Source: Pengzhenrongella sicca
GTDB taxonomy: Bacteria; Actinomycetota; Actinomycetes; Actinomycetales; Cellulomonadaceae
DNA length: 64,000 nucleotides
Assembly: GCF_017569225.1 (NCBI RefSeq)
Contig: NZ_CP071868.1
Coordinates: 4,278,001-4,342,000, forward strand
Direction: 5' to 3'
The position numbers and the translations under genes were made by a program. Position 1 is the stretch's first letter. Each line of letters starts with the position of its first letter. This document shows, in pieces, positions 5,699-13,408 of the stretch. The notes under the pieces are model-generated. The model made no database searches, was not told the DNA's origin, and saw only the letters and a list, made by a program, of their open reading frames with translations.

Positions 5699-6130
5699 AT
5701 GCACTTCGTGCCGGGGAGCGAGGACGACGACGGGCAGGCGTGGCGACGGCGCGTGGTGCCGGACAACGAGCGCCGACACCCGGGACGGCGGGGACCTCGA
5801 CACGGGCGGCATCCAGATGCCGTTGCTCCAGCCGCGCGGTGGCGGCGGCGGGGGCAGGGAGAACGAGCAGACCTACTGGTTGACGCCGGTGCCGGAGGGC
5901 GACCTGATCGTCGTCGTCGCCTCGGTGCCTCTCGCGCTCGCGAAGGGGCGGGTCGTCGTCGCGGCGCAGACCCTCGCCGCGGCGGCGGCACGCAGCGGGC
6001 CGCTGTGGCCGCGGGAGCCCGACCCCCCGTACGACCAGTTCCCCGGGCCGCGCCCGGAGGTGCCGCCCGGCGGCTGGTTCGAGCGGGCGCTCGGCCCCGC
6101 GGCCGGGGCCGGCCAGTTGCTGGCCGCTAG
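5699..6130 (+). pseudogene. Frameshifted remnant of a conserved actinobacterial hypothetical protein
   Basis: The second part, read in the frame of 5763-6126, has a glycine-rich run (PLLQPRGGGGGG), then YWLTPVPEGDLIVVV and later GPLWPREP. This resembles the C-terminal half of a common actinobacterial hypothetical family (Gly-rich loop, YW-x-x-PLP, LWP). The first part (MHFVPGSEDDDGQAW) lies in a different frame, with the shift somewhere near 5770-5780, and the second frame runs without a stop into the opposing luxR remnant. I read it as a broken gene; it could also be chance coding. No function is known for the family. Confidence 0.4.
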
Positions 6131-6762
6131 TAGATCCCGAGCCGGCGCGCGCGCTGCACCGCCTGTGCCCGGCCGCCGACCTCGAGCTTGCGGTACATCG
6201 AGCGCAGGTGGGTCTTGACGGTGTTCACGCTGATGACGTGCGCGTCGGCGATCTCGGTGAGCGTCAGGACGGAGGGGAGGTCGCGCAGGATCGTGAGCTC
6301 GCGGTTCGTGAGCGACAGGGACCTGCCGGCGGTGTCGCGCGCCGCGAGTGTGACCGCGACGGCGTTGGCGAACGGCTCGAGATGCCCAAGCCGACCGTGC
6401 GCGCCGAGCAGGAGTTCGGGCACCTCGAGGCCGGCCTAGAGGAACGGCCGGACGGGGTGCAGCGGCATCGCTTCCTCCAACGCCTGCCGCAGCGCGTCGT
6501 CGGCGGCAACCCGCTGGCCCCGGCGCGCGGCCGTCTCGGCCAGCACCAGCCAGGCGGCGGTCCGCGTCGTGACCGCCCAGCTGCGCTTGCGGTCGGCGAG
6601 CGCGGCGTGGAGCCGGGGCACCGCCGTCGGCGAGTGCGCGTTCACGACGGACTCGATCAGGTCGGCCTCGAGGCAGTCGGTGCTCGAGATGCGGAAGATG
6701 CCCGGCGGGGTGCCGGTGATGTACGGGCCTGTGATCGACCAGGCGCCCCTCGCGCTAGACAT
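6127..6762 (-). pseudogene. LuxR-family regulator remnant with in-frame amber stop
   Basis: One continuous frame holds the end of a large MalT/LuxR-type regulator: a helical tail (ALADRKRSWAVTTRTAAWLV), then a GerE-type helix-turn-helix near the end (LTLTEIADAHVISVNTVKTH and LRSMYRKLEV). The frame is interrupted once, by TAG at 6436-6438 in the context RPFL-stop-AGLEVPELL. Relatives usually have Glu there, so a single GAG to TAG change would explain it. The N-terminal ATPase and most of the sensor region are missing, the upstream side being joined to a kinase-like remnant. A short product from GTG 6423 (98 aa, HTH only) remains possible. Confidence 0.7.
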
Positions 6763-7245
6763 GATCGCCCACCCCTACCTGCCCCGGTCGCGATCGCATT
6801 CAACCGCTGGTTCGGGCGCGAGACCTTCCACGCCGGCGGGTTCGTCGCCGCCGGCCGGGCCTGGCTGGCGCCGTCGTCACCGACGGGACCGTCGCCTTCC
6901 GCGGTCCGCGGTGCCTCGACCTGCGCGAGCCGCCGTCGTTCGCTGCCCTGCACCTCACTTCCTCTCGGCAGGGCACGAGGCTGGGGCTGCGGCTGCCACC
7001 TCGGTCCGACGCGGTGCCGATCGGGGGGTGGTTGTTCCTTGGGTGGTCGTCCGCACTCGCCGCCCGTCGGATCCCCGCGCGACCTCCTCGCCCGGCTCGC
7101 GGCGCTGCGGTCCTGGCGCGAGCACCCCTCTGATCCCGCGATGCTGCTCGCCCTCGCCGCCCTGGCGGCGTGGGACCTCACCCGGCCGCAGGACTGGACC
7201 GCTCTGGACGCCGTCGTCGACCTGATCGGGGCGACCGTGCGATGA
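6752..7245 (+). pseudogene. Degraded copy of the HPr-kinase-like lasso-cluster gene
   Basis: This stretch aligns by eye with the intact kinase-like gene at 10878-11720: LDMIAHPYL, then VAIAFNRWFGRETFHAGGF, and the C-terminus ending ALDAVVDLIGATVR. It lacks the first ~84 codons, has a 1-nt deletion near 6780 that changes frame, and has lost roughly 85 nt covering the Walker A loop and what follows. After its stop, ATGACGACGGCCGAG (from 7244) resembles the first codons of the peptidase gene at 8819, then the sequence switches to the end of the cyclase gene. It is the leftmost remnant of a duplicated cassette. Confidence 0.8.
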
Positions 7246-7266
7246 CGACGGCCGAGCTGGAGCGGA

Positions 7267-8409
7267 TCAGCTCGCGTGCCTGCCCTGAGCGGTGAGCCAG
7301 AGCTGTTGGGCCAGCAGCGCGGTCACGGCGGGGATCGGCCAGCTTGACCACACGCGTCGCAGCGCTTGCACGTCGACGTACCGATCATCGACTCCGGTGA
7401 AGTCCCCCGACTGAACGAACTGCCGAGTCGGTTCCCTGAAGAACACTTCGTTGAAGCGCGCCTTGGGCCGCGCGGCGAAGACCTCCGGCGCGATCTGACT
7501 CGCGGCGATCGCCTCGAGCAGCTGGGGCCGCCGCGGCCCCGTCGCGCCGAAGGCGTGCGCCAGTGACTGGACGAAGCCGGGGTCCAGGATCGGGTGCCGC
7601 AGCTCGACATCGACGTCAGCCGCGATGGCGTCGAGGCTTGAGAGGGTCATCACCATGGCTCGGCGGGCCGCGTGCCAGGCGACGCGGCGGTCAAACCGCT
7701 GCGGCTGAACCCGCCTCTCGTTCAGGTATGCCCCCAGGACGCGTCGGGCCGCGTGCGGGTGCAACCACGGGAACGGCGCCGAGCCGCGCCGCACCGAGAC
7801 CCACGAGCGCACCCCGACCGGAACGACGTCCTCCGTCAGCACTCGCCTCAGGCTCCGACCTGGGCGCGTCGGCCACCCCATGAGCACCTGGTCTCCGCCG
7901 GCACCGGTGAGCAGCGACCCGCCCGTGGCCCGTTCGAGGAGGGGCAGGTGCAGGTGCGCGTTCGCCGGGTAGACGACGCCGTGCGCGCGCAGCACCCGCT
8001 GCGCAACCGGACCGAGAAGGTCGAGCTCGTCGGTCGCGTCCAGCCGCACCCAGTCGGGCAGCCCGAGCGCCGTGACCACCGTCTCCTGCGACGGCGACTC
8101 GAAGGCTTCGGGGGCGTCCGGGAAGCGCCAGGTGCAGGGCACCGGCAGCTCCAGGCCCTCCCGGCGGGCGACGCGGGTAGCCACCGCGAGGACGAACGAC
8201 GAATCGAGCCCACCGGAAAAACTCACCAGGCAGGGCGCCCTGCGCAACGCCGGCAGCACCGCGAGCTCGAGCGCGGCGAGCGGCGATTGCGGCTCCAGGA
8301 GACCGTCCGGCAAGATCTCTCGAACGGGCAGGCCCAGGCGTTGCTTCCACGGTCGTGGGGCCTCAGCAACCACTCCAGACGCGACCTCAAGTGCCGTCAG
8401 CGTGATCAC
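7267..8409 (-). CDS. Asparagine-synthase-like lasso cyclase, lacking the N-terminal domain
   Basis: A 380-residue ATP-dependent ligase of the asparagine synthetase B fold. The pyrophosphate loop SGGLDS is at residues 65-70, and a second synthetase-domain motif reads TGAGGDQVLMG. In lasso pathways such enzymes adenylate an Asp/Glu side chain and close the ring with the N-terminal amine of the core. Characterised lasso cyclases are about 550-650 residues with a glutaminase-like N-terminal domain; that domain is absent here. The start is GTG 8409, 29 nt after the precursor stop, without a clear ribosome site, so coupling to the precursor is likely. Role is inferred from context; the fold assignment is firm. 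Confidence 0.85.
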   Translation of the reverse strand: MITLTALEVASGVVAEAPRPWKQRLGLPVREILPDGLLEPQSPLAALELAVLPALRRAPCLVSFSGGLDSSFVLAVATRVARREGLELPVPCTWRFPDAPEAFESPSQETVVTALGLPDWVRLDATDELDLLGPVAQRVLRAHGVVYPANAHLHLPLLERATGGSLLTGAGGDQVLMGWPTRPGRSLRRVLTEDVVPVGVRSWVSVRRGSAPFPWLHPHAARRVLGAYLNERRVQPQRFDRRVAWHAARRAMVMTLSSLDAIAADVDVELRHPILDPGFVQSLAHAFGATGPRRPQLLEAIAASQIAPEVFAARPKARFNEVFFREPTRQFVQSGDFTGVDDRYVDVQALRRVWSSWPIPAVTALLAQQLWLTAQGRHAS

Positions 8410-8438
8410 AAGGGAGGTGAGTTCCGAGGTTCGCCCGC

Positions 8439-8591
8439 TCAGCCGGGGATACCTGAGGGATCCTGGAGGTCGAGTCCATCAGATTGATCGAAGCCAAACC
8501 CCTGGGTGAGTTCTGCCAGGGTGCCCAGGCGGTCGAGACGCGGCGGCTCGTAGTCGGGGACGTGCGGGGACGGGTGGTCGGTCGTCTGCAT
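8439..8591 (-). CDS. Lasso peptide precursor 1 (core GFGFDQSDGLDLQDPSGIPG)
   Basis: A 50-residue peptide. The leader (residues 1-30) contains YEPPRLDRLGTLAELTQ, an exact match to the known lasso leader rule Y-x2-P-x-L-x3-G-x5-T, which the recognition protein binds. Thr29 sits at position -2 of the predicted cleavage site, as required in known systems. The core would begin at Gly31, 20 residues long, with Asp8 of the core in position to form an 8-residue macrolactam ring; Asp5 is too close. GGAAGGAAG precedes the ATG. It lies directly upstream of the cyclase. Product structure is inference. Confidence 0.85.
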   Translation of the reverse strand: MQTTDHPSPHVPDYEPPRLDRLGTLAELTQGFGFDQSDGLDLQDPSGIPG

Positions 8592-8628
8592 CAGGATCTT
8601 CCTTCCAGGGCACATCCACCGAAAGAGC

Positions 8629-8690
8629 GATCCGAAAAGCGTACTGCCTAGGTCACACCACTGGACAGGGGTCGCCGGTAGCCTGGATCG
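8629..8690. promoter_or_regulatory. Divergent promoter of the first lasso cassette
   Basis: On the minus strand a -10 box TACGCT (8643-8638) precedes precursor 1 by about 47 nt. The block GATCCGAAAAGCGTACTGCC (8629-8648, plus strand) recurs almost unchanged before the other two precursor genes. On the plus strand TAGCCT (8679-8684) lies 6 nt before the ATG at 8691, as expected for a leaderless transcript. CTGGACAG (8661-8668) also recurs at the second cassette. Confidence 0.6.
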
Positions 8691-8822
8691 ATGCCCGACC
8701 GGCCAGGACAGCCCGCCTACGGTCCGACCTTCTACGCCCTCCCTCGGGTCGAGGAGGTCCTCGCCGGGCCAGCGGCCGCGCTGGACGCCGTCGTCGACCT
8801 GATCGGGGCGACCGTCCCATGA
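8691..8822 (+). pseudogene. Internally deleted HPr-kinase-like gene (43 codons)
   Basis: The first ~28 codons (MPDRPGQPAYGPTFYALPRV) match the N-terminus of the intact kinase at 10878, and the last ~14 (ALDAVVDLIGATVP) match its C-terminus. Some 235 codons between them are gone, with frame preserved. The stop overlaps the ATG of the peptidase gene at 8819 (ATGA). The remnant therefore still has its own leaderless promoter and can couple translation into the peptidase, which may be why it persists. The Walker A loop is lost, so it has no kinase activity. Confidence 0.85.
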
Positions 8823-10213
8823 CGGCGGCCGACCGCGCGCCCGTGAGCATCCTCGAGGCGGCGCGTTGCCTCGCGCTCGACCAGGCGGCCGCGGCGGCGA
8901 GCGCCGCGCTGACGGAGCGCGACATCCGCAGCGTGCTGCTCAAGGGCTCCGGCCTCGCCGAGCGCCTGTACCCCGACCCGAGCCGGCGCGCGTACCTCGA
9001 CGTCGACCTGCTCGTCGCGCCGGCGGACTTCGACCGGACCCAGCAGGTCCTGCGCGACCTCGGATACACGGACCTGACCGCCGGCATGCGGGCGGACGAG
9101 CTGCTCTGGTACGAGCGGCAGTGGCGGCCGCCGGGCGACGGGTGGCTCACGATCGACCTGCACCGCGGCTTCGCGGGCGTCGGCGACCCGGACGCGTTCT
9201 GGCGGGAGCTCCGGTCGGGGGCGCAGCAGCGCACGCTCGCGGGCGGAGTCGTGGCGGTGCCCGACGCCGCCGGCTGCGCGCTCGTCGTCGCCCTGCACGC
9301 GGCCGCGCCCGGCTACGGGGACAAGGCCGCGCAGGATCTCGCGGCCGCGCTCGCGGTGCTGCCCGCGCCAGTGTGGACGGCCGCGGCGAGCCTCGCCCGC
9401 GCCGCGGCGGCCGAGCAGTCGTTCGCCGAGGGGCTCCGGCAGACCGCCGACGGCGCGGCGGTGGCGGCGTCGCTCGGGCTCGCGAGCTCCAGTTCTCCCG
9501 TCACCATCCTGACGGCGCACCGCGTGGAGCCCTCCGCGCTGTCCCTCGCTCACCTCGTCGCTCTGCGGGGCGCCCGGGCGAGGTCCGTGCACGTGGCACG
9601 CCGGCTGGTGCCGTCCGCCGCCGCGATGCGCCGCTCGAGCGCGCTGGCCAACCGGGGCCGTCCCGGCCTCGCGGCGGCGTACCTGCTGCGGATCGGCAAT
9701 CTCGCCGCCCGCGCCCCGGCGGCGGCGCGCGAGCTGCACCAGGTCCGCCAGGCGCGCGCGGCCGGGTCGACAGCACCCGGGCCGACGGCGCCCGCGGCGC
9801 AGCTCCCGACGCTCGGCGACGGCCTCCGGATCGTCCGCCGGCTGACCTGGGCCGAGGCACGCACCTGCGGCTGGGCGCTGTGGGCGCTCCTGCGGGTGCG
9901 GCGCGCGCTCCGCCGCGGTCCGCTCATCGACGTCGAGGTCGCACCGCCTCCGCGGGGGACACGGCGGGAGCTGCGCGCGGCGCAGGCCGTGCTGCGCCGG
10001 ACTCGCGCGTCGTGCCTGGAACGCTCGCTGCTCCTGCAGCGCTGGTACGCGCGGCACGGGGTCGCGTGCGACCTGGTGATCGGGGTGACGGCCCCGGGCT
10101 CGGGCTTTCACGCCCACGCGTGGCTCGAGGGCGAGGGACTCCCGGCGGCGCGGGTCGTCGGCACGGAGCTGCTCCGGCGGCCGACGCCGGAACGCTGGCT
10201 CGCGGGGTCCTGA
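8819..10213 (+). CDS. Nucleotidyltransferase-like domain fused to lasso B2 leader peptidase
   Basis: A 464-residue two-domain protein. Residues 1 to about 240 resemble the NTP_transf_5 (PF14907) family: SVLLKGSGLAERLY, then DVDLLV with the paired acidic residues, and IDLHRGF. Residues about 345-464 form a transglutaminase-like lasso B2 peptidase with Cys399 in SCLERSLLLQRWY and His433 in HAHAWLE. In lasso pathways B2 cuts the leader from the precursor. B2 proteins are usually stand-alone (~140 aa) or fused to the B1 domain; fusion to a nucleotidyltransferase suggests a tailoring step such as nucleotidylation, which is inference. Start ATG overlaps the preceding remnant. Confidence 0.85.
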   Translation: MTAADRAPVSILEAARCLALDQAAAAASAALTERDIRSVLLKGSGLAERLYPDPSRRAYLDVDLLVAPADFDRTQQVLRDLGYTDLTAGMRADELLWYERQWRPPGDGWLTIDLHRGFAGVGDPDAFWRELRSGAQQRTLAGGVVAVPDAAGCALVVALHAAAPGYGDKAAQDLAAALAVLPAPVWTAAASLARAAAAEQSFAEGLRQTADGAAVAASLGLASSSSPVTILTAHRVEPSALSLAHLVALRGARARSVHVARRLVPSAAAMRRSSALANRGRPGLAAAYLLRIGNLAARAPAAARELHQVRQARAAGSTAPGPTAPAAQLPTLGDGLRIVRRLTWAEARTCGWALWALLRVRRALRRGPLIDVEVAPPPRGTRRELRAAQAVLRRTRASCLERSLLLQRWYARHGVACDLVIGVTAPGSGFHAHAWLEGEGLPAARVVGTELLRRPTPERWLAGS

Positions 10214-10269
10214 GGCAGCCGCCCGCCCGGACCGCTGCGAGCGAATCCCGAGCTCAGAACCTCAGCGGG

Positions 10270-10557
10270 TCAGGACGTCAACAGCCCGTACGACCCGAGC
10301 TCGGTGAGGAACGCATCGACGTCGGCGGACGCCCGCTCGGCGGGTGCGCCGCTCGCCACGAGCATGCCGACGAGGTCGCGCCGGGTCGCGCCCGCGGCCA
10401 GTCGCTTCCACAGCAGCACGCCGGTCGGGTTCAGCCCGTAGTACACCGAGTCCTCGAGGTCGAGCACGACCGCCTCGTCGTCCGTCTGGCGCCACGCGAC
10501 CCGATCGCCGACCACCTGGTAGGTCCGGCCGTCGGGGTTCGACTCCGTGCTGGTCAT
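10270..10557 (-). CDS. PqqD-family RiPP recognition element (lasso B1-type)
   Basis: A 95-residue PqqD-fold protein: VAWRQTDDEAVVLDLEDSVYYGLNPTGVLLW is the characteristic winged-helix segment with the conserved tyrosine and Asn-x-x-Gly, and a helical C-terminal half follows (SADVDAFLTELGSYGLL). Such domains bind the leader of RiPP precursors and deliver it to the peptidase and cyclase. It is the only intact copy in the locus. Its ATG overlaps the stop of the leader::cyclase remnant (ATGA), showing that the ancestral order was precursor-cyclase-PqqD. It would have to serve both intact precursors. Confidence 0.9.
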   Translation of the reverse strand: MTSTESNPDGRTYQVVGDRVAWRQTDDEAVVLDLEDSVYYGLNPTGVLLWKRLAAGATRRDLVGMLVASGAPAERASADVDAFLTELGSYGLLTS

Positions 10558-10745
10558 CTCCTGCTCCTCTCATCAGCGGACAGCCAGAGCTGTTGGGCCA
10601 GGCCGGCAGTGCGGAACGGGATCGGCCAGACCGACCACACGCGGCGAAGCGCGCCCTGGGGCAATTCCGCCAACGTCCCGAGGCGATCGGCGCGCGGCGG
10701 CTGGTACCGCACCGCAGGAGACAGAGACCGCTCGGTGCCTGGCAT
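10554..10745 (-). pseudogene. Lasso leader fused to cyclase C-terminus by deletion
   Basis: Residues 1-30 are a lasso leader (YQPPRADRLGTLAELPQ, with the -2 Thr changed to Pro and the motif Leu to Ala). From residue 32 it continues as ALRRVWSVWPIPF and AGLAQQLWL, the last ~35 residues of the cyclase (compare ALRRVWSSWPIPA and LLAQQLWL at the end of the intact one). A deletion removed the core peptide and about 340 codons of a second cyclase copy and joined the rest in frame. AAAGGGG precedes the ATG, and the stop overlaps the PqqD start, so it may still be translated to allow PqqD expression. Confidence 0.85.
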
Positions 10746-10778
10746 CGGGAGCCCCTTTCAGAGGCGTTCGCCGGAACC

Positions 10779-10877
10779 GATCGAAAAAGCGTACCGCCGC
10801 ACACAGCCACCTGGACAGCACCGTCGATCGCGCCGGCCCGCGGTCCCTCACCCGTGGATCACCGCTACCCTGGGTCG
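10779..10877. promoter_or_regulatory. Divergent promoter of the second lasso cassette
   Basis: GATCGAAAAAGCGTACCGCC (10779-10798) is the second copy of the conserved block; its minus-strand -10 box is TACGCT (10793-10788), 43 nt upstream of the chimeric leader ORF. On the plus strand TACCCT (10866-10871) is 6 nt before the GTG of the kinase-like gene, matching the leaderless arrangement of cassette 1. CTGGACAG recurs at 10812-10819. Confidence 0.6.
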
Positions 10878-11720
10878 GTGCCCGAACGGCTCGGACAATC
10901 CGCCTACGGCCTGACCTTTCGCGGCCTGCCTCGCCTCGAGGAGCTCTCGCTCGCTCCGACGCCCGCCACGGGGCCCGAGGTCACGATCGGCGTCGACCCC
11001 GACCGCGCGCACACGCCGGCGGCTAGCAAGCTCGACGATGACGGCGGGGTCGCGGAGCTCGCGGACGGCCGGGTGCTCGCGGTCGACCGCCAGGCGGCCA
11101 CCGCGACGTTCTTCGGGCCGCCGCTCGAGCTGGACATGATCGCGCACCCCTACCTGTCCCCGGTCGCGATCGCGTTCAGCCGCTGGTCCGGGCGTGAGGT
11201 CTTCCACGCCGGCGGGTTCGTCTCCGCCGGGCGGGCCTGGATAGTCCTCGGCCCACGGACAGCCGGCAAGAGCACGCTGCTCGCGGCCCTCGCCGCCCGC
11301 GGGGTCGACGTGCTGAGCGACGACGTCGTCGTCACCGACGGGGCCGTCGTGTTCCAGGGCCCGCGGTGCATCGACCTGCGCGAAGCTCCGCCGTCGAGCT
11401 CCCGGCACCCGACACACTCGCTGCACCTCACGCGCGCGCGGCAGGACACGCGGCTGCGCATGACGCTGCCGGACCGGGCTGACCCGGTGCCGGTCGGGGG
11501 ATGGCTGTACCTGCAGTGGGCACCCGCGGTCGCAGCGACGCGCATCGCGGCGCGGGACCTCCTCGCCCGGCTCGCCGTGGGGCGCATCGCTCGGTTCAGC
11601 CCCTCCGATCCCGCGACCCTGCTCGCCCTCGCCGCGCTGCCGGCGTGGGACCTCGCTCGACCCCGGGACTGGTCGGCACTCGACGACGTCGTGGACCTGA
11701 TCGGGGCGACCCTCCGCTGA
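10878..11720 (+). CDS. HPr-kinase-like P-loop protein of the lasso cluster
   Basis: A 280-residue protein with a Walker A loop GPRTAGKST at residues 125-133 in a context (SAGRAWIVLGPRTAGKSTLL) typical of HPr serine kinase homologues found in lasso clusters; SDDVVV near 147-152 fits the downstream acidic segment. Homologues in paeninodin-type clusters phosphorylate a serine of the precursor tail. Both cores here contain a conserved Pro-Ser-Gly-Ile-Pro end, so that serine is a candidate target; this is inference. The start GTG lies 6 nt after a TACCCT box. It is the only intact one of three copies. Confidence 0.8.
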   Translation: MPERLGQSAYGLTFRGLPRLEELSLAPTPATGPEVTIGVDPDRAHTPAASKLDDDGGVAELADGRVLAVDRQAATATFFGPPLELDMIAHPYLSPVAIAFSRWSGREVFHAGGFVSAGRAWIVLGPRTAGKSTLLAALAARGVDVLSDDVVVTDGAVVFQGPRCIDLREAPPSSSRHPTHSLHLTRARQDTRLRMTLPDRADPVPVGGWLYLQWAPAVAATRIAARDLLARLAVGRIARFSPSDPATLLALAALPAWDLARPRDWSALDDVVDLIGATLR

Positions 11721-11750
11721 CGGCGGCGCCGGGCGTGGGTACCGAAGAAC

Positions 11751-11948
11751 TCAGGGGATGCCGGACGGCAGGGTCAAACTGGGGGCCTCGCGCTCGAGGA
11801 CGCCGCGGGTTCCCTGGGTGAGCTCGGCCAGGGTTCCCAGCCGGTCGACGCGCGGGCTTTCGTAGGCGTTCCTCGGCAGGTGGTGAGGCGAGAGTGCGTC
11901 ATGAGGCGACAGGTCGTCACGAGGCGGAAGATCGTCCGGGTGCATCAT
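11751..11948 (-). CDS. Lasso peptide precursor 2 (core GTRGVLEREAPSLTLPSGIP)
   Basis: A 65-residue precursor. Leader residues 29-45 read YESPRVDRLGTLAELTQ, matching Y-x2-P-x-[LV]-x3-G-x5-T, with Thr44 at -2. The predicted core starts at Gly46 and is 20 residues long; core Glu9 (9-residue ring) or Glu7 (7-residue ring) could be the acceptor. The N-terminal 26 residues carry a His/Asp/Pro repeat (DDLPPRDDLSPHDALSPHHLP) absent from precursor 1. The start is the first of two ATGs (11948), after AGGAGGAGGG. It has no cyclase of its own and would depend on the enzymes to its left. Confidence 0.85.
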   Translation of the reverse strand: MMHPDDLPPRDDLSPHDALSPHHLPRNAYESPRVDRLGTLAELTQGTRGVLEREAPSLTLPSGIP

Positions 11949-11969
11949 CAAGTCCCTCCTCCTGAGAAT

Positions 11970-11989
11970 GATCCGAAAATCGTACCGCC
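11970..11989. promoter_or_regulatory. Third copy of the lasso precursor promoter block
   Basis: GATCCGAAAATCGTACCGCC on the plus strand gives the minus-strand -10 box TACGAT (11984-11979) about 31 nt before the first ATG of precursor 2. The homology to the other two copies stops at 11989, about 11 nt before the end of the pirin gene, so the upstream half of the original promoter (including CTGGACAG) is missing here. Confidence 0.55.
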
Positions 11990-11999
11990 GATGCGCCAA

Positions 12000-12977
12000 T
12001 CACCGCCGCGGGCGCAACCGCCCGTTCGGCAGCTCCGGGGCGGGCAGCGGCGGGCCGTCGAACCCGTCGACCTGGCCGAACCGGTCGGAGCCGCCCACCA
12101 AGCCCGCCTGCCATTGCGCTCGCGCGGCCACGATCTCCTCGTGGCTGCGCCCGACGAAGTTCCACCACATGACGATCTCCGCGCCGAACGGGACGCCGCC
12201 GATCAGGATGAGCCGCGCGTCGTCGTCGGCCCCGGCCTCGAGGCCGATCTCGGCCCGGCCCGGCGGCAGGTACGCGAGCGACGACGGCGCAACCGCGGTC
12301 CCGTCGATCCGGAGCGTGCCGCGGTCGACCAGCACGGCGTGCTCGAACGTGGAGTCGACCGGCAGGACGGCGCGCGACCCGCGGGGTAGGTCGACCTGTG
12401 CGCCGACGCTCGGGGTGAACGTCGTCGCGGGCGAGCGCACGCCGGCGAGCTCGCCGACGAGCAGCCGGACCCGCGCGCCCGGGAGCTCCAGGACCGGCAG
12501 GTCGCCGTGATGTTCGAAGGCCGGCGCGCCGTGGCGGGCCGACTCGGGGAGCGCGATCCAGAGCTGGACGCCGTGCAGCAGCGGCGAGCGGACCGGCGGG
12601 GACTGCTCGGAGTGCGAAATCCCCGCGCCGGCGGTCATGAGGTTGAGCTCGCCGGGGCGCACGAGGGCCGCCGACCCGATGCTGTCGTGGTGCTGCACCT
12701 CGCCCTCGAACAGCCAGCTCACGGTCTGCAGGCCCGTGTGGGGGTGCGGGGGGACCTGCATGCCCGCCGACGCCGTGACGTCCGCGGGGCCGTAGTGGTC
12801 GAGGAAGCACCACGCGCCGACCATGCTGCGATCGCGCTGCGGCAGCGTCCGTCGCACGGACATCGCGCGCGGGCCGCCCAGCGGGACGTCACGCGGTTCG
12901 AGGATCTCGAGCCCGCCAGCGGGCGCCCCACCCGACGCGCACACCCGCTCATCCGGTCGGGCCTCGAGGTTGCTCAT
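12000..12977 (-). CDS. Pirin family protein
   Basis: A 325-residue bicupin. The N-terminal cupin holds the metal motif HPHTGLQTVSWLFEGEV with HHDS and the later QLWIALP, all standard in pirins; the C-terminal cupin covers about residues 190-300 (ILIGGVPFGAEIVMWWNFVGRS). Pirins are non-haem-iron proteins, some with quercetinase activity and others acting as regulators; the role here is not known. The ATG of MSNLEARPDE is chosen because the longer frame upstream has no family similarity. It follows the lasso locus and marks its right border. Confidence 0.9.
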   Translation of the reverse strand: MSNLEARPDERVCASGGAPAGGLEILEPRDVPLGGPRAMSVRRTLPQRDRSMVGAWCFLDHYGPADVTASAGMQVPPHPHTGLQTVSWLFEGEVQHHDSIGSAALVRPGELNLMTAGAGISHSEQSPPVRSPLLHGVQLWIALPESARHGAPAFEHHGDLPVLELPGARVRLLVGELAGVRSPATTFTPSVGAQVDLPRGSRAVLPVDSTFEHAVLVDRGTLRIDGTAVAPSSLAYLPPGRAEIGLEAGADDDARLILIGGVPFGAEIVMWWNFVGRSHEEIVAARAQWQAGLVGGSDRFGQVDGFDGPPLPAPELPNGRLRPRR

Positions 12978-13041
12978 CGGCGCGTCCCCAGCGTGTCGGC
13001 TACCGCACCCCGGGCGAGGGGCGCCTACCCTGGAACCAGCG

Positions 13042-13074
13042 AAGGCCCCTCGGAGTAAGCGTCCGAGGGGCCTT
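13042..13074. terminator. Strong hairpin, possible terminator
   Basis: AAGGCCCCTCGGA and TCCGAGGGGCCTT are perfect 13-bp arms around a 7-nt loop. There is no long T run on either strand, which is common for GC-rich actinobacterial terminators. It lies 65 nt upstream of the pirin start, so it would end transcription from the DnaA-box region or act as a leader element of pirin. Confidence 0.55.
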
Positions 13075-13408
13075 GCTGCGATCGCCAGTCTCACAGACCG
13101 GTTGCCCGGCGCTTGCCTGACACCGCTTTGACGATGCGGCGTGGTGCCTACCCTCGGTTGCCCGAGTGCGGAACCTCTCGCGATCAGTCCGTCCGGTCCG
13201 TGCCGACACCTGCGTCGTCACCCGCAGCCACGGGATCTCCCCCGTGAGATGGTCGGCCGTTCTCCGGCCGCACAGCCCCTCGAATGTCGCCGCGTGCCCC
13301 GGGTTTCCCCGCTCTCCACGCCGGTCCGAAAAGGCCGATATAGACGTTCTAGACCCCGCGAAGACCGCCCCGCAACCCCCTGAGAGCGGCAGTTTGTGGG
13401 CCGGCTCT

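Follow-up and report, generated by a model that had tools for sequence, protein, structure and literature searches.

The window, a stretch of 64,000 nucleotides (nt) of the Pengzhenrongella sicca genome (assembly GCF_017569225.1, contig NZ_CP071868.1, positions 4,278,001 to 4,342,000 of the forward strand), carries at 6744-11989 an array of lasso-peptide genes. Repeat search and self-tblastn showed that this array consists of three head-to-tail partial copies of one unit. In this unit, a kinase gene (K) and a gene fusing a nucleotidyltransferase (N) to the leader peptidase B2 (NB2) lie on the + strand and face the genes of the leader-binding protein B1, the lasso cyclase C and the precursor A on the - strand. 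Spread across the copies are one intact K, one NB2, one B1, one C and two precursors with cores. The features are listed below, with the evidence in brackets (HMM, hidden Markov model).

A three-copy lasso-peptide array

6744..7245, +, K1, kinase pseudogene of unit 1; lacks its 5' third and 79 nt internally, with frameshifts (tblastn)
7244..7266, +, NB2 start relic of unit 1, about 7 codons in length and adjoining the 3' end of C (sequence: ATGACGACGGCCGAGC versus ATGACGGCGGCCGACC at 8819)
7267..8409, -, C, intact lasso cyclase of unit 1, 380 residues (Pfam Asn_synthase 2.9e-15; alignment; HMM 507 bits)
8439..8591, -, A1, precursor with core GFGFDQSDGLDLQDPSGIPG and a predicted G1/D8 ring (NF033521 lasso leader 1.7e-7)
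8624..8648, -, conserved box upstream of A1, with a -10-like TACGCT by eye (direct repeat D10; alignment)
8691..8822, +, K2, in-frame kinase remnant of 43 residues with a 4-nt overlap (ATGA) with NB2 (tblastn; alignment)
8819..10213, +, NB2, intact nucleotidyltransferase-B2 leader peptidase fusion of unit 2 (Pfam NTP_transf_5 2.1e-21 and Transglut_core3 1.2e-12; NF033537 lasso B2)
10270..10557, -, B1, intact PqqD-like leader-binding protein of unit 2 (Pfam PqqD 2.1e-14; HMM 116 bits)
10554..10745, -, A2::C, unit-2 leader fused in frame to a cyclase C-terminus, with an ATGA overlap with B1 (tblastn; HMM)
10774..10798, -, conserved box upstream of A2 (direct repeat D10; alignment)
10878..11720, +, K3, intact HprK-like kinase of unit 3 (HprK_rel_A 1.8e-6; AlphaFold2; Foldseek)
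11721..11750, no strand, unit-3 joint: a brief NB2 start relic, after which NB2, B1 and C are missing as far as the 3' end of A3 (sequence)
11751..11948, -, A3, precursor with core GTRGVLEREAPSLTLPSGIP (NF033521 1.1e-5)
11965..11989, -, conserved box upstream of A3, at the right edge of the array (direct repeat D10; alignment)
12000..13094, -, pirin gene flanking the array (Pfam Pirin)

Unit 1 is constituted of K1, the NB2 relic, the intact C and A1, and lacks B1. Unit 2 retains K2, intact NB2 and B1, and the A2::C fusion, and unit 3 retains the intact K3, a short NB2 relic and A3. The outer edges of the array lie at 6744 on the left and at 11989/11990 on the right. Apart from the start relics at 7244-7266 and about 11717-11733, NB2 is single in the window, as is B1. 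The HMM located leader segments at 8502-8567, 10656-10718 and 11814-11876, and the cyclase C-terminal remnant lies inside 10554-10652. The A2::C product has no core, and the Thr at position -2 of its leader is replaced by Pro. K1 and K3 share 83% DNA identity over 488 aligned nt with 11 gaps, 9 of which are not multiples of three, and the 79-nt loss takes out the Walker A motif together with the first of the two Asp residues of the DD pair; K1 is dead.

The copies are divergent. DNA divergence amounts to 17% between K1 and K3, 24% and 19% between K2 and K3 (start and end, respectively), 7% between the ends of K2 and K1, 23% between C and its remnant, and 20-33% among the leaders, hence an overall range of 7-33%, mostly 17-26%. 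In codon-shuffle controls (200 shuffles per pair), the real score exceeded that of the best shuffle for K1 against K3 (277 versus 46), K2 against K3 (62 versus 27), the cyclase remnant against C (63 versus 31) and A1 against A3 (59 versus 31), leaving little doubt about these homologies; the spacer between A and K was barely above its best shuffle (30 versus 24).

An initial annotation, made from the sequence of the window, had counted three kinase copies with one intact, one intact cyclase and a C-terminal remnant, three leaders of which two have cores, one intact peptidase and one PqqD. All these counts were borne out by the repeat search, self-tblastn, shuffle controls and HMMs, and Pfam identified the peptidase gene as the NTP_transf_5-Transglut_core3 fusion. 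The second peptidase start that it suspected at 7244 is the NB2 relic. The copies lie at the places that it gave; 11990, which it listed among the deletion joints, is the outer edge of the array, and the joint at about 11733-11750 had been missed. Its central observation, complementary losses that leave one full enzyme set across the copies, was confirmed by tblastn, HMMs and alignments, and the homology among kinase copies and among leaders, on which it depended, is strong.

A fourth relic was found outside the window, about 630 kb away (approximately G000:C1:3652090-3653470). It is flanked by a pirin pseudogene (approximately C1:3652090-3652971) with 79% DNA identity to the pirin gene beside the array. 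It holds a third precursor with an intact core, A4 (3653069-3653206; lasso leader NF033521 8.2e-7), followed by a cyclase tail overlapping a B1 that is cut at model position 46. Genome searches yielded remnants but no further intact C, K or B2: C is present as one intact copy and a remnant, K as one intact copy and the K1 pieces, NB2/B2 as one copy, and B1 as one intact and one cut copy. Thus, the three precursors with intact cores (A1, A3, A4) would use a single enzyme set, if all are expressed.

Related loci and parallel patchworks in Micromonospora

A cyclase-alignment scan of a genome collection confirmed at least 95 relatives, of which the best 80, at 78 loci, were kept. Among the matches listed, the nearest cyclases are those of Micromonospora (49-54% identity). 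K was matched in 24 of the 160 Micromonospora species searched, and K of the window shares at most 56% protein identity with any sampled relative. We mapped 28 Micromonospora stretches with HMMs built from those same sequences and the window, so that the models were trained on their targets; the sample was conditioned on K, and loci without K were therefore missed.

Closer to P. sicca, K was absent from all 4 other species of the genus searched, no full-length NB2 was present in 220 other genomes of the family (6 had partial, weaker matches), and an order-wide search gave K in 5 of 396 genomes, including its own, the other four carrying a more distant K family. In the C and N trees the window stands next to the Micromonospora clade (98/94 and 94/96), and in the K tree it falls within an unresolved group together with Micromonospora. 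The B1 and B2 trees give no clear placement.

The usual Micromonospora unit reads K N B2 facing B1 C T2 T1 A, where T1 and T2 are exporter genes. It has the same gene types and orientations as the window, but N and B2 are separate and an ATP-binding cassette (ABC) exporter is present in most loci. No name was found for these clusters. The canonical order stands in one piece in 9 of the 24 genomes (G249, G383, G310, G313, G250, G323, G363, G251, G292), and the layout is non-canonical in the other 15. Even with the canonical layout, the cyclase of G313 and G292 is broken or interrupted, and K of G292 is broken too.

Two non-canonical loci are patchworks like the window. In M. rubida (L143/L162), K, B1, C, T2, T1 and A are intact in the first copy, where N and B2 are remnants, and the next copy has intact N and B2 with a K remnant of 134 residues, in which the start is joined to the end in frame with about 140 residues gone; beyond it lie another A and C. 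In the trees, the first-copy C, K and B1 group as sisters of their G363 counterparts, whereas N does not (approximately unbiased (AU) test, p 2.2e-6; the C and K trees supplied the groups for the AU tests). In G262 (L144), B1 is missing from the main unit (K N B2 C T2 T1 A), and the only B1 match of the genome sits in an inverted, degraded copy with remnants of cyclase, B2 and N. The tree position of this B1 differs from that of the main unit (p 2.7e-8). In both genomes, therefore, precisely the genes lost from the main copy are present in a degraded second copy, and the trees place the supplied gene in another lineage. L140/L141 also has an N from another lineage than its C and K (p 1.6e-36), and its layout needs an inversion too. 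The type II order (L155, L157, L158) and that of M. humi (L145) fit duplication-loss products, yet without remnants, and a block move could be an alternative origin of these orders.

Other genomes have dispersed sets: B1-B2 lies elsewhere in G246 and G301 (L192, L193), a disrupted N with B2 and B1 lies elsewhere in G366 (L195), the only B2 of G399 is elsewhere, and G386 carries an additional piece comprising T2, C, B1, B2, N and T1 (L194). Exactly one B2 was found in 23 of 25 genomes, and two in G250 and G310. G243, G247, G310 and G386 have two cyclases, and G244 has one and a broken second. The genome-wide search for B1 covered 13 of the 25 genomes. Searches of the open-access literature turned up no report of such lasso mosaics.

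Also, three further layouts were observed. M. sonchi has, besides a full cluster, a K-N-C-A piece (L153, 7158-8163) with a cyclase split over two frames and a precursor that reads into odd sequence. G343 (L152, 2302-3049 and 6223-10527) has a split layout, with T1 and A to the left of K beyond a 3-kb gap, and N, B2, B1, a split C and T2 to the right of K. M. humi carries a lone K with a precursor whose core would start with Arg (RAAGTQPEPSGLPGKSSG; L159, 9636-10725), the other lasso enzymes not being found in the 20 kb around it.

Predicted enzymes and peptide cores

B2 scores above the NCBIfam lasso cut-off, and C and B1 score under the NCBIfam lasso-model cut-offs and above those of Pfam. 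Leader-bearing precursors (A1, A3, A4), B1, B2 and C are all present in the genome. By homology, B1 would bind the leader, B2 would cut it, and C would close the ring. The NTP_transf_5 match assigns the part fused to B2 to the nucleotidyltransferases. For K, a profile search against PDB sequences was weak (Hpr kinase 0.022), and fold comparison was therefore used. The AlphaFold2 model of K3 (mean predicted local distance difference test 91.7) matched PEPCK and HprK structures in Foldseek with E values down to 1.2e-7 and 8.5e-5, at template-modelling scores of only about 0.3-0.6. The fold match and 7 of 8 motif residues argue for an HprK-like kinase, though the HprK_rel_A match of K3 lies far under the family cut-off.

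These motif residues are those of BsfK, the HprK-like lasso kinase of the Bsf cluster of Bradymonas sediminis, as given in excerpts of PMC10368454. K3 has H110, G125, G130, K131, S132, D148 and D149 at matching spacing (own numbering, by hand), and T128 replaces a Gly. According to the same excerpts, BsfK phosphorylates Ser3 of the core; residue 3 of the cores described here is instead G (A1), R (A3) or D (A4). The presence of K and N genes beside lasso genes also recalls the paeninodin and pseudomycoidin clusters. Excerpts of PMC8498205 describe a nucleotidyltransferase-B2 fusion for several Firmicutes lasso clusters, and a kinase and a nucleotidyltransferase that put phosphate and hexose on the C-terminal Ser of pseudomycoidin. 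By homology, K would likewise add a phosphate that the nucleotidyltransferase part would modify. Unlike those clusters, that of the window is actinobacterial, is arranged divergently (K-NB2 versus B1-C-A), comprises three partial copies, and has two precursors without a terminal Ser.

The features of the cores are mixed. A lasso core typically has Gly at position 1 and Asp or Glu at positions 7-9. A1 and A4 have G1/D8, and A3 has G1 with E7 or E9, its core lacking Asp or Glu at 8. A C-terminal Ser, the candidate acceptor, is seen only in the remote A4; A1 ends in SGIPG and A3 in PSGIP. The A4 core (GLDGGGDDGLGGGAFS) resembles Micromonospora cores such as GGTSGPDDGLGGGGFS. In the Micromonospora loci, 26 of 28 cores have Ser within the last three residues and 27 of 28 have Asp at 8, a count that includes L153, with its odd read-out, and L159, without Gly1.

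Proposed origin and retention of a composite enzyme set

We consider it likely that redundant units were pruned while one working enzyme set was kept, and that the array is probably a functional composite lasso cluster made in this way. Three related copies of a K-NB2-B1-C-A unit would have come to stand head to tail; as the three copies were redundant, each could lose genes, and losses leaving the genome without any copy of an enzyme would not have persisted. In the composite set, C would be that of unit 1, NB2 and B1 those of unit 2 and K that of unit 3; this set would serve A1 and A3, perhaps also A4 at its distant site. This resembles the tandem duplication-random loss of gene order, with a block repeated in several copies, alternate and complementary loss, remnants and conserved orientation. 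Excerpts of the literature on that process concern mostly mitochondrial genomes, unlike the present bacterial biosynthetic clusters with partly foreign second copies.

The remnants carry a second line of evidence. The overlap between K and N is 4 nt in 18 of the 20 pairs measured, with the in-frame start closest to the K stop used in each; L143 and L162, two entries of one M. rubida remnant pair that has the 4-nt overlap as well, were not counted. Four remnants stand directly before a retained gene (K2 and A2::C in the window, K in M. rubida, C in G262), and each of them is open and in frame and ends in a 4-nt overlap with the next start. By contrast, K1, which has no NB2 downstream, is frameshifted. 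The chance that five large deletions are all in frame is (1/3)^5 = 0.004 (by hand, computed post hoc). K2 and A2::C were probably kept in frame by translational coupling of the next gene. The C-to-B1 overlaps in Micromonospora are poorly measurable, as their start codons are ambiguous.

Several observations weigh against this reading. Random placement of four intact genes in the 12 slots keeps all four types with a probability of 0.16, so that the window alone does not prove selection. In 3 of the 24 Micromonospora genomes (G292, G313, G343) the only cyclase is broken or interrupted, so that, barring draft errors in these genomes, retention of a working set is not universal. The in-frame counts were made after the cases had been seen. 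In the N-B2 remnant of M. rubida, with no retained gene downstream on its strand, the N and B2 pieces lie in different frames, yet one frame likewise runs open from close to the start of N to the stop of B2, and the remote cyclase tail still overlaps B1 although B1 itself is cut; the contrast between coupled and uncoupled remnants is blunted and rests mainly on K1. The K1/K3 mismatches by codon position (27/19/36) show a third-position excess too weak for a dated period of constraint on K1 to be claimed. A1 and A3 lack the near-C-terminal Ser typical of Micromonospora cores and A3 also lacks D8, so that their modification is uncertain. Finally, the Micromonospora exporter models T1 and T2 had no match in the window, other exporter types not having been searched for, and the cluster may therefore be incomplete.

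Neutral decay, in which the entire locus is decaying and its full set was left by chance, draws on the same chance value, on the many indels, on the missing exporter match, on the decayed fourth relic and on the broken Micromonospora cyclases. We nevertheless regard it as unlikely, since C, NB2, B1 and K3 are full length with their family motifs kept, the complementary outcome recurs in relatives, and the remnants preceding retained genes are in frame. This recurrence and frame keeping strengthen the case for selection, as does the single B2 of nearly all genomes. Still more improbable is a role of K2 and A2::C as functional small genes. Each is an open, in-frame sequence overlapping the gene after it, and M. 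rubida has a K mini-gene as well; but the two K lengths differ (43 versus 134 residues), the catalytic segment is absent from both, the A2 leader has lost Thr(-2), and a mere translational-coupler effect agrees with pruning around one kept set. The mapped relatives likewise do not carry the fragments as independent conserved genes. An assembly or sequencing artefact can practically be set aside: repeats can be misassembled, but the genome is a single contig of 4.395 Mb with 99.99% completeness, K1 has 11 gaps and not one, and the copies are too different for assembly confusion, with at least 17% divergence over most parts.

As to how the units came together, it is quite conceivable, though the chances fall somewhat short of even, that related clusters of different donors were set side by side and then pruned, with no tandem duplication in place. 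The supplied gene of M. rubida and G262 is of another lineage than the main unit, most parts of the window copies share only 67-84% DNA identity, and the genus and family are otherwise without the locus in the genomes searched. However, the K copies of the window (83% DNA identity) are nearer to each other than to any sampled relative, and the pirin copies at the two sites differ to a similar extent, as one old duplication burst would give. The initial annotation had read the array as tandem and pruned under selection. The pruning and the complementarity stand and the evidence for selection is indirect, with the points above on both sides, while tandem duplication in place is one possible origin among others, given the divergence of the copies and the foreign second units in two Micromonospora cases; no close single-unit relative was found.

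For the family as a whole, the evidence is about evenly balanced on a broader proposal. Co-resident clusters of this lasso family, some of different lineages, would be pruned towards one shared enzyme set per genome, hybrid pathways would serve several precursors, and broken upstream genes would persist as short in-frame reading frames that only keep the next gene translated. If true, gene order in this family is made by stacking and complementary loss, and enzymes that come from different lineages would need to act on one another's substrates. The array would be a bacterial pathway caught in the middle of its rearrangement, with the remnants still legible, and it offers a testable route for changes of operon gene order and for one peptide pathway serving several precursors. 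For genome mining, a cluster-by-cluster scan would call several of these loci incomplete though the genome holds a full set.

Some observations concern the edges of the array and of the remote relic. No tRNA was found in the window. In the pirin surroundings of congeners (4 stretches), the only lasso-gene matches were ABC-type T1 matches in a single stretch, and the flanks were not shared clearly enough to define an empty site. Positions 6127-6762 (- strand) encode a C-terminal piece of a LuxR-type regulator (GerE 2.3e-13), whose frame is interrupted between 6423 and 6436 and which stops at the beginning of K1; this broken gene may contain the left edge of the array. In the remote 20-kb stretch one tRNA was called, at 1298. 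A sequence resembling a tRNA 3' end (by eye) adjoins the B1 relic there (L187, 11533-11565; G000:C1, approximately 3653532-3653564); no complete tRNA was called at this position, which could mark an old integration site.

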